Positions 10,962-17,231 of a DNA stretch of 64,000 nt are shown here, piece by piece. The stretch covers positions 1 to 64,000 of the forward strand of contig JAJECO010000035.1 of NCBI GenBank assembly GCA_022822005.1. Direction: 5' to 3'. How positions within the stretch are numbered: the stretch's first letter is position 1; each line of letters starts with the position of its first letter. The notes beneath the pieces were generated by a model. The model was not told the origin of the DNA, ran no database searches, and saw only the letters and a list, made by a program, of their open reading frames with translations. Source of the stretch: Candidatus Poribacteria bacterium. GTDB taxonomy: Bacteria > Poribacteria > WGA-4E > PCPOR2b. A program made the position numbers and the translations under genes.

Positions 10962-11348
10962 ATGCACACCGCACAGGTAATCGAGTATTATGAAAATCCG
11001 CGGAATGTTGGCACAATTGCAGATGCGGACGGAGTAGGCGTTGTTGGCACACCTGCCAGTGGCGAAATGATGAAACTCACAATCAAGGTTTCCCAAGATC
11101 GGATTGTCGATGCAAAGTTTAAAGCCTTTGGGTGTCCAACCGCAATCGCAGCCAGTTCCCTCATCACAGAGCTGATCAAAGAACACACAATTCAAGAAGT
11201 ATTAGACATAACAGATCGACAAGTTGATGAAGCACTTGGAGGATTACCGCCGGATAAAGTACGCTATGCTGAACTTGCCGAAAAGGTATTAAAAGCTGCA
11301 ATCCATAATTATATTTCACATCTAAATAACAAAGGGGAATCAAAATGA
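10962..11348 (+). CDS. NifU/IscU-like protein lacking two scaffold cysteines
   Basis: A 128-aa protein with the IscU/NifU N-terminal fold (ENPRNVGT, then FKAFGCPTAIAASS). IscU scaffolds use three cysteines. Here the first is Ser33 (PASGEMM, where IscU has PACGDVM), the second is kept (Cys58), and the third is Tyr102 (VRYAELAEK, where IscU has a Cys). The usual Asp beside the first cysteine is Glu35. Normal Fe-S assembly on this protein is therefore doubtful. The ATG at 10962 follows GGAG by 6 nt and is preferred to an upstream TTG at 10950. Its stop overlaps the next start (ATGA). Confidence 0.85.
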   Translation: MHTAQVIEYYENPRNVGTIADADGVGVVGTPASGEMMKLTIKVSQDRIVDAKFKAFGCPTAIAASSLITELIKEHTIQEVLDITDRQVDEALGGLPPDKVRYAELAEKVLKAAIHNYISHLNNKGESK

Positions 11349-11686
11349 TTATAGTGACCGAAGCTGCAGCGAAAAAAGCACACCTGTTAATGCAGGACGC
11401 GATGGGACAAGAGGCTGTAGATGCTAGCGCAGAGCACGGTCTGCGTATGCAGGTTATTGGGGGCGGGTGTTCCGGTTTCCAGTACAATCTGGGATTCGAT
11501 GAACAACGGAATGGTGATAAGGTCTTCGAGCAACATGGATTGAAGGTCTTTATCGATTCGCGTAGCACACTTTATCTCGCCGGTTCGACGTTGGACTACA
11601 AAGATGGTCTAATGGAGTCAGGCTTCAAGATTACCAACCCAAATGCGAGGTCTGAGTGTGGTTGTGGCGAATCTTTCAGTGTATAA
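11345..11686 (+). CDS. A-type Fe-S carrier, IscA/ErpA/HesB family
   Basis: A 113-aa protein with the three conserved A-type cysteines: one in GGGCSGFQY (about 38-46) and two in the C-terminal CGCGESF. Such proteins carry Fe-S clusters or iron to target apoproteins. The residues between the motifs match the family in length. It is translationally coupled to the degenerate NifU-like gene by a 4-nt overlap, and both run from one promoter to a strong terminator. No cysteine desulfurase gene is nearby. Confidence 0.93.
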   Translation: MIIVTEAAAKKAHLLMQDAMGQEAVDASAEHGLRMQVIGGGCSGFQYNLGFDEQRNGDKVFEQHGLKVFIDSRSTLYLAGSTLDYKDGLMESGFKITNPNARSECGCGESFSV

Positions 11687-15234: not shown

Positions 15235-15311
15235 AGCGTAGTTGGAGCGAGGCAGATCCTAAAGTCTTGACTCTCACTGGATTTTGTACTGTTCACGGGA
15301 CTGGGGAAAGC

Positions 15312-17231
15312 ATGGCGCACCCGACGAAAAATGATAGCAAAGCCGATGTTACCTTACGAGCGGTACTCATCGGTTTAGCGCTTGTACCAATTAACGTCTA
15401 TATCGTCGTACAGTGGGAAACGGTTTGGAATACGCAATACCCAACCACGATGACGATTTTTTATAATGCAGTTTTCACTTTCCTGTCCTTGATCTTGGTG
15501 AACATGCTGCTGAAGCGGTGGGTACCGCGGATTGCATTGAGTCAACAGGAGCTGCTGACAGTCTATACAATGCTCCTCTTAGCGGTCTGCGTCAGTGGTC
15601 ATGATTTTAGCCAATCCATATTTTGCACGTTGGGTACTGCCCGTTGGTCTGCAACGCCAGAAAATGATTGGAGCAACCTCTTTTGGAAGTATTTATCACA
15701 ACGACTTACCGTAAATGACGATCAGGTGCTTTACGGGTTCTACAAGGGTGAGTCAACATTTTACACCGCAGCCCATATCAGAGGCTGGCTTGAACCGATG
15801 GTATGGTGGACGCTTTTCCTTTCGGTGGTTGCGTTTACCATGTTCTGCTTGAACATAATTATCAGGAGACAGTGGATCGAAAAGGAGAAATTAACTTACC
15901 CGCTCGTTCATTTGCCTTATGAGATGAGCCGCGAAGGAAATGGGCATCATCCATTTTTCAGAAACAAATTGCTTTGGCTCGGTTTTGGTTTAGCTGCTGG
16001 TATTAATCTGATTAATGGGACAACCTACCTGTTTCCTGTACTTCCGCAGATTCCGCTTGGATACAACCTCAACGTCTACTTTACAGAGCGCCCATTTAAC
16101 ACGATGGGCAATTTCCCCGTTCAGTTTAATCCTTTTGCCATTGGTCTTGCCTTTGCCATCCCACTCGATCTCCTCTTTTCGTGCTGGTTCTTTTTTCTTC
16201 TTTGGAAAGCGGAACGAGTTGTAGGTAGTATGGCAGGGGTCAATATGCCCGGATATCCATTTGTTGCGCAGCAGGTACTTGGTGGATATCTGGGAATCGC
16301 CATTGTCTCCTTCTGGCTGGGTCGGAAACCGATTTGGCAGGTCATAAAAAGGGCTATCGGAGCAAGGTCTGAGGTAGACGATTCCGATGAACCGATAAAG
16401 TATAGAACCGCGGTGCTTGGCATAATTGTAGGAATTAGCTTCTTGGTGTTTTTTTCATATCAAGCTGGAACAACCGTTCAGTTTGGCTTGGCGTTCTTCG
16501 GAGTCTACTTCGTTATTGCGTTTGCACACACGCGAACACGAGCGGAACTCGGTCCCCCAATACACGGGATTTACCACTATGGTCCGCTCCAACTTTTCAT
16601 AGCGATGGTGGGCAGTCGTAAACTCGAAAGTCAGACATTAACGGCAGCAGCACCGTTTTGGACATTCACGAAACAATTCAGAAACCATCCGATGCCGTAC
16701 ATGCTTGAAAGTTTCAAACTGGCAGATCGGTCAGGTATGGATACCCGCAAACTTGGAAAAGTCATTATGTTCTCCGTCGTTGTGGGTATTATCGTAACGT
16801 TCTGGACATTTCTGCAATTCAGTTATAAATGGGGAGGTGTCAGTGAGGGGCGTGGCATTGGTGCTTACACAGTAATTGAGCGGTGGCTTGTACGTCCAAT
16901 AGAACCGGATGCACAGTCGCTCAGTGCCGTTGGTATTGGCGCCCTGGTTGTGTTCATCAACACAGTGCTGCGATTACGGTTCTTATGGTGGCCGCTGCAT
17001 CCGTTGGCTTATCCGATAACTGGATACTTGCCCTTCGAACATCTGTGGTTTCCGTTTCTTATCAGTTGGGTGGTAAAAGGGGCAATCCTCAGGCATGGAG
17101 GCATACAGACTTATCGTCGAACCTTCCCGTTCTTTCTGGGGTTGGTTTTGGGTGCATTCACGATAGGCAGCATCTGGGGAATCGTTGGGTTGGTGACGGG
17201 TATACCGACCTATGCGTTTAAGCGATGGTAG
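15312..17231 (+). CDS. Polytopic membrane protein, DUF6785/OPT-like
   Basis: A 639-aa integral membrane protein with about 12-14 hydrophobic segments and few soluble regions. It resembles the DUF6784/DUF6785 proteins that recur in catabolic clusters of Poribacteria-like and planctomycete-type genomes, and whose fold looks transporter-like (oligopeptide-transporter type). That family call is from memory of the pattern and is moderate. The ATG at 15312 is preferred over a TTG at 15267 because GGGGAAAG stands just before it. Its position next to an amidohydrolase and a Gfo/Idh oxidoreductase suggests uptake of an organic solute. Confidence 0.7.
   Translation: MAHPTKNDSKADVTLRAVLIGLALVPINVYIVVQWETVWNTQYPTTMTIFYNAVFTFLSLILVNMLLKRWVPRIALSQQELLTVYTMLLLAVCVSGHDFSQSIFCTLGTARWSATPENDWSNLFWKYLSQRLTVNDDQVLYGFYKGESTFYTAAHIRGWLEPMVWWTLFLSVVAFTMFCLNIIIRRQWIEKEKLTYPLVHLPYEMSREGNGHHPFFRNKLLWLGFGLAAGINLINGTTYLFPVLPQIPLGYNLNVYFTERPFNTMGNFPVQFNPFAIGLAFAIPLDLLFSCWFFFLLWKAERVVGSMAGVNMPGYPFVAQQVLGGYLGIAIVSFWLGRKPIWQVIKRAIGARSEVDDSDEPIKYRTAVLGIIVGISFLVFFSYQAGTTVQFGLAFFGVYFVIAFAHTRTRAELGPPIHGIYHYGPLQLFIAMVGSRKLESQTLTAAAPFWTFTKQFRNHPMPYMLESFKLADRSGMDTRKLGKVIMFSVVVGIIVTFWTFLQFSYKWGGVSEGRGIGAYTVIERWLVRPIEPDAQSLSAVGIGALVVFINTVLRLRFLWWPLHPLAYPITGYLPFEHLWFPFLISWVVKGAILRHGGIQTYRRTFPFFLGLVLGAFTIGSIWGIVGLVTGIPTYAFKRW

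Follow-up and report, generated by a model that had tools for sequence, protein, structure and literature searches.

In one order of Candidatus Poribacteria an IscU/NifU-type protein, here named IscU*, is encoded directly 5' of an intact A-type carrier; judged from its sequence and predicted structure it is an IscU by fold and relatedness, and it fails the residues that define the scaffold. It is therefore very probably not a standard scaffold, and a new job for IscU* is probable because its altered form has been kept by selection and the intact carrier nearly always adjoins it. The reading that we favor, at a probability of roughly one in three (about 0.35), is that IscU* would act as a one-thiol adaptor that docks on IscS and hands sulfur to IscA. 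The cluster ligands of IscU, a very widely conserved protein, are regarded as indispensable, so that an order keeping a ligand-poor IscU provides a natural experiment separating what IscU contributes as a cluster scaffold from what it contributes by docking with IscS and IscA. It also bears on how A-type carriers get loaded, and it is a warning that a profile match alone is insufficient for annotation as an “Fe-S scaffold”.

The IscU* and carrier genes

The window, i.e. the whole 64,000-nucleotide stretch of DNA analyzed here, is part of contig 16 of a source genome of 6.0 Mb in 97 contigs. The genes encoding IscU* and the carrier (Table 1) overlap by four bases (ATGA, the stop of IscU* and the start of the carrier at 11345), with a GGAG motif a few bases 5' of the IscU* start. 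Pfam searches of the window ORFs gave E values of 4.1e-38 for NifU_N in IscU* and 1.6e-17 for Fe-S_biosyn in the carrier. The first-pass annotation had described an IscU-like protein with Ser33, Tyr102 and a lone Cys58 beside a partner keeping all three cysteines, and both descriptions are borne out by the ORF translations: Cys58 is the sole cysteine among the 128 residues of IscU*, which also has Glu35, Asp98, Lys99 and Arg101, and the carrier has Cys42, Cys105 and Cys107 and no others. Further substitutions beyond those already listed are Glu for Asp35, Arg for His101 and LPxDK in place of the LPPVK motif. Judged by eye, the ORFs around the pair look unrelated and include none of the genes that adjoin each other in an isc operon (iscS, hscB, hscA and the ferredoxin gene fdx).

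Table 1. Coordinates of the features discussed, in the window or on other contigs.
Feature	Position	Strand	Remarks
IscU/NifU-type protein, IscU*	10962..11348	+	window; 128 aa, ATG at 10962, NifU_N match
A-type carrier (IscA/ErpA-like)	11345..11686	+	window; 113 aa, Fe-S_biosyn match
Large membrane protein	15267-17231	+	window
Large membrane protein	L081 4075-6018	+	near the canonical NifU gene of G059
Glutaredoxin-family gene between SufS and SufBD gene	L063 2747-3121	-	window genome
IscS-type gene overlapping NUBPL/Mrp-type NTPase gene	L111 6075-8248	+	window genome

Substitutions and their distribution

Residue counts refer to 65 distinct sequences from the order, a set that overlaps the 57 Poribacteria loci; a 46-residue fragment at a contig end in G008 (L062) and five canonical rows were excluded, and one of the 65 (L061) has an unreadable X at position 33, leaving 64 for that site. 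Cys58 and the IscS-contact lysine Lys99 were both invariant, in 65/65 sequences and 57/57 loci. Position 33 was occupied by Ser (44 sequences), Asp (12), Asn (5), Thr (1), Lys (1) or Arg (1) and by Cys in 0/64, while position 102 was Tyr in 61 and Phe in four of the sequences and Cys in 0/65. The canonical Asp at position 35 was replaced by Glu in 63 sequences and retained in two, position 98 was Asp in 63 and Glu in two, and position 101 was Arg in 64 and His in one, the single His101 row also being without both cysteines. According to the first-pass annotation, an isolated mutation or error would be indicated if almost every close relative had Cys33 and Cys102; the survey of homologues found Cys33 or Cys102 in 0/57 Poribacteria loci, and an isolated mutation or sequence error was ruled out by the order-wide fixation of the substitutions. 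A second, gapped IscU*–IscA pair was seen in G005 on a 4.1 kb contig (L061, G005:C247) that resembles the sequences of another genus and is possibly an assembly contamination.

The search of the phylum covered 84 genomes, 72 from the order of the window and 12 from outside it. Full-length IscU* was found in 64/72 genomes of the order, with the G008 fragment in one further genome and no match in seven; four in-order genomes (G050, G068, G074 and G078, 78–86% complete) were without both IscU* and carrier. Five of the 12 out-of-order genomes (G058, G059, G060, G066 and G082) have a canonical protein keeping the C-D-C-H-C pattern, and the other seven gave SufU-like matches only, or none. Of 292 relatives the best 80 were kept, and the 23 of these that come from outside the phylum all have C-D-C-H-C at positions 33, 35, 58, 101 and 102. 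Position 98 was V, I, Q or N, and never D or E, in the canonical relatives among these best 80 and in the canonical Poribacteria. A search of viral contigs gave 11 pattern stretches and no relative.

A tree built without eleven diagnostic columns split 19 variant from 17 canonical rows with support of 98/99 (100/99 with these columns included), which fits a single origin of the variant. In ten of ten pairs from five genomes of the window's genus dN/dS was 0.09–0.15, and by this estimate IscU* is under purifying selection. The replacing residues are themselves conserved (Glu35 in 63, Asp98 in 63, Arg101 in 64 and Tyr102 in 61 of the 65 sequences), which points to a functional protein and would not be expected of decay.

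Fold and comparison with known proteins

The match of IscU* to NifU_N (PF01592) reached 130.8 bits against a cut-off of 22. An AlphaFold2 model (pLDDT 94.9) showed the IscU fold over the whole length, with Archaeoglobus fulgidus IscU (4eb5_C) as the closest solved chain (Z 22.4, 48% identity). E. coli residue numbers were mapped through an alignment with relatives and through numbers quoted in papers. With this numbering, IscU* was found to lack two of the three scaffold cysteines (37, 63 and 106 in E. coli) and to have Glu and Arg in the window at the Asp39/His105 site. In place of LPPVK, described as the HscA motif of IscU in the available text of PMC9596805, it has D or E at position 98, where canonical relatives vary too. 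The IscS-contact lysine (Lys103 in E. coli) is present as Lys99. Scores fell below the cut-offs of the NCBIfam scaffold models TIGR01999 (115.1 vs 192.4) and TIGR03419 (141.9 vs 187.9) and of the SufU model TIGR01994 (54.0 vs 92.5).

IscU* thus resembles the IscU of ISC systems (E. coli IscU, human ISCU2) in Cys63 (its Cys58), Lys103 (its Lys99) and the neighboring IscA, as in the G066 operon described below, and differs in that Cys37, Asp39, His105, Cys106 and LPPVK of E. coli IscU are replaced. The NifU-type IscU family (TIGR03419, NifU_clost) is its best NCBIfam match, though below cut-off, and the clostridial relatives among the best 80 of 292 have the full C-D-C-H-C, unlike IscU*. SufU shares the fold (Z up to 14.9), whereas it has three cysteines and is encoded by a separate gene in the window genome. 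The fold of SufE is related (Z 7.0 for the E. coli protein and 8.2 for CsdE, values near 7–8 being weak), and SufE too has one conserved cysteine. By the equivalence given in the available text of PMC6006206, this cysteine matches the lost first cysteine of IscU, at position 33, and not Cys58, so that the likeness to SufE is one of logic only, that of a one-thiol carrier. A classification of IscU* as SufE-like by position was dropped, the SufE cysteine corresponding to position 33 and the mouse ISCU acceptor to position 102 (accessible parts of PMC6006206 and PMC6687725). The SufE family (PF02657) gave no match in the window genome (G000) and matches in 2/18 genomes, both from family f4. The available text of PMC7585200 describes a ligand exchange also in Methanosarcina acetivorans IscU3, with the first Cys changed to His, a protein that could be non-functional according to its authors; there a single ligand in a single described gene is affected, whereas IscU* has lost two cysteines, Asp, His and LPPVK across an order. 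Searches of an open-access library brought up no description of the variant, and PMC9531940, the one paper that they gave for Poribacteria, contains neither “Poribacteria” nor “IscU” in its main text.

Other Fe-S genes and descent from an isc operon

The first-pass annotation had proposed looking for another complete IscU or SufU in the genome, and one was found: the second NifU_N protein of the window genome is a three-cysteine SufU (TIGR01994, 98.5 vs cut-off 92.5) in a suf operon. In the same row are an ABC ATPase (SufC by position), two SufBD proteins, a glutaredoxin, a class-V aminotransferase (SufS by position), a Rieske protein and a SufT-type protein. With SUF genes and SufU present, general Fe-S assembly therefore looks covered and IscU* appears to be extra. 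The IscS-type desulfurase, whose active loop reads SSGSACNS, is encoded on another contig than the pair and scored just under one model cut-off (546.7 vs 548) and well under a second (532.2 vs 643.2), and a NifS above its cut-off is encoded on a third contig. The other Fe-S_biosyn match belongs to an NfuA-like protein, which has no carrier cysteines in its A-type half. In three f3 genomes with IscU* (L115, L116 and L117) IscS stops within its C-terminal helix, the one to which IscU binds in E. coli; the IscS of two f1 genomes and of one f2 genome is not shortened. Separately, two f4 genomes of the same order (G011 and G014; L109, L110 and L122) have SufE and neither SufU nor IscU*, as if SufE had taken the place of SufU, and in G011 a desulfurase gene adjoins SufE.

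G066, from family f7 of the same class, encodes in a row IscS, IscU, an A-type carrier, two small proteins, an HscB-like protein and an Hsp70. One of the small proteins, which looks like a ferredoxin, and the Hsp70 were assigned by eye from their motifs. The G066 IscS is over the cut-off of one model, its IscU has C-D-C-H-C and LPPVK intact, its carrier is 62.8% identical to that of the window, and its HscB-like protein has HscB models as best matches, all under cut-off. Because this operon has a canonical IscU beside the same carrier, the IscU*–carrier pair looks like a retooled isc-operon remnant, and on these sequence comparisons the two window genes most probably represent the central part of a former isc operon. 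The overlap of the IscS-type gene with the NTPase gene in the window genome (Table 1) is possibly a further remnant. With the G066 protein as the query, a search that reaches near relatives only, HscB was found in 0/11 in-order genomes including G000 and in 0/6 others, with G066 recovered as a control, in line with the lost LPPVK motif. A search with PF07743 gave 0/18 genomes but missed the HscB-like gene of G066 too, so that this negative carries no weight.

Pairing with the carrier

The carrier gene lies directly 3' of IscU* on the same strand in 56/57 loci, the 57th ending at a contig edge 32 bases on. The gap is at most 24 bases in 53 of the 56 (86, 101 and 501 in the remaining three), and the two genes overlap in 25/56. 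All 56 adjoining carriers have the three cysteines, and a strong carrier match was found in all 64 genomes with full IscU*; the carrier of the window scored 112.4 with TIGR00049 (cut-off 58.8) and has the three conserved cysteines of the A-type family. The carrier was also present in three f4 genomes with no match of any kind to IscU* (G011, G014 and G016) and in four f7 genomes without IscU* (G062–G065, two of the four less than 80% complete), and inspection by eye of three f4 and two f7 loci showed no IscU-like ORF next to the carrier gene. The genes therefore form a tight pair and not an obligate unit. The suggestion in the first-pass annotation is thus partly borne out: a non-standard scaffold coupled to the carrier is supported by the residues, by their fixation across the order and by the pairing, while the handling of Fe-S clusters or another metal by the pair is a putative role.

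Proposed role of IscU* and alternative explanations

The IscS-contact positions of E. coli IscU (11 in number) were taken from the available text of PMC2854127, and their mapping onto IscU* is our own. The counterparts of Lys103 (Lys99), Gly38, Lys42, Gly62 and Cys63 were kept in at least 62 of the 65 sequences, and Tyr11, Lys59 and Tyr61 were mostly kept or swapped for like residues. The counterpart of Tyr3 was Tyr in 47/65 and His in the window, and altered positions were Val40 (Met36 or Leu), Thr60 (mostly Ala55) and Gly64 (mostly Pro59). According to the accessible part of PMC2854127, changing Lys103 of E. coli IscU to Glu abolishes IscS binding and Cys63 was seen disulfide-bonded to the active cysteine of IscS, although its authors regarded Cys37 (33 here) as the preferred first acceptor and Cys63 as the second. 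The available text of PMC6687725 gives C35, D37, C61 and H103 as iron ligands of mouse ISCU and C104 (102 here) as its persulfide acceptor. Iron or cluster binding in the known way is unlikely in IscU* because it keeps only the counterpart of C61 and a carboxylate at that of D37.

The docking lysine, the one thiol and the steady A-type neighbor together suggest a sulfur-passing adaptor. IscU* would descend from the IscU of a former isc operon whose cluster site may have been dismantled while SUF handled general assembly, IscU* being retained next to its old neighbor IscA. It would dock on IscS via the conserved Lys99 face, and Cys58 would take a persulfide from IscS or form a mixed disulfide with it. 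The sulfur would then pass to the three-cysteine IscA, which would hold the cluster or a precursor. We infer the descent, the docking, the sulfur transfer and the partnership with IscA alike. Counted against the adaptor is that Cys58 is the acceptor position neither of mouse ISCU nor of SufE, and that mouse ISCU without metal takes up no persulfide (both within the available text of PMC6687725 and, for SufE, of PMC6006206). Several IscS-contact positions are changed, IscS is shortened in f3 and that of the window genome scores below its model cut-offs. The carrier occurs without IscU* in three f4 and four f7 genomes, and LPPVK is not strict in canonical relatives; these points too weigh against the adaptor.

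Other readings involve a cluster, in two cases shared between the two proteins. An IscU*–IscA heterodimer holding one cluster on the three IscA cysteines and Cys58 is unlikely, even though the 3+1 ligand count, the invariant Cys58 and the adjoining and partly overlapping genes would suit it, and an asymmetric 3+1 cysteine arrangement has reportedly been seen in an IscA homodimer. It would find a parallel in A. fulgidus, where IscS supplies a cysteine ligand to an IscU-held cluster (available text of PMC7585200), but it has to accommodate the f4 genomes, and some of those of f7, in which the carrier occurs and IscU* does not. Less likely again is that the cluster is built at the IscU*–IscA interface, with Cys58 of IscU* joining the three IscA cysteines, and no longer on IscU alone; if true, this would be a new sharing of the nascent cluster by a scaffold remnant and a carrier, with assembly and delivery merged in a single complex. 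That IscU* is still a scaffold, a homodimer whose Cys58 and carboxylates would assemble a cluster with the aid of glutathione or another thiol, seems very unlikely: it has the IscU fold, with its closeness to A. fulgidus IscU, but both cysteines are gone in every readable in-order sequence, the His in all except one, and SufU and the SUF genes are present.

Two further explanations turn on what the replaced residues might do. In the predicted secondary structure, residues 98, 101 and 102 share a face of helix 97–125, and we infer from this that a salt-bridge network of the new Asp, Arg and Tyr may take the place of the metal site. IscU*, folded permanently and independent of metal, could then sit on IscS and steer sulfur between partners with no chemistry of its own, D98, R101 and E35 possibly standing in for the metal. 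This regulator is perhaps the least improbable of the alternatives, though we still consider it rather unlikely; the kept Lys99 and the competition of IscU and TusA for IscS (accessible part of PMC11302665) favor it, but it leaves the invariant Cys58 and the steady pairing with IscA unexplained. It is doubtful that IscU* donates mononuclear iron or another metal to IscA from a rebuilt site of Cys58, Glu35, Asp98 and Tyr102. Each of the four positions shows conservation or a conservative exchange, one of the four mouse ISCU ligands is kept (C58) and one conservatively exchanged (E35; available text of PMC6687725), and 27/57 loci have a Fur-family-like gene upstream, but the other two ligands are lost, His101 to Arg brings in a positive charge, and that gene was not found within 5 kb at the four loci of the window's genus. 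A decaying relic or a sequence error is extremely improbable, the variant being fixed in 65 distinct sequences with the low dN/dS given above and nothing having been found in its favor. Relative to these alternatives, the one-thiol adaptor remains our preferred reading.

Neighboring genes

In 27/57 loci (including L133, L139 and L150) IscU* is preceded on its own strand by the Fur-family-like gene, which mostly follows MqnE and an MqnA-like gene and lies about 70–150 bases away in some loci and kilobases away in others. The radical SAM enzyme MqnE is above its model cut-off, whereas the Fur-like protein reaches none of the cut-offs; the MqnA-like neighbor has no NCBIfam match and is tentatively so named. 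This neighborhood, a possible clue to a pathway, occurs in part of the loci and not in those of the window's genus, and it was not relied on as main evidence. The large membrane protein encoded downstream of the pair resembles by eye the one encoded near the canonical NifU gene of G059 (Table 1), and the two may merely belong to an abundant family.
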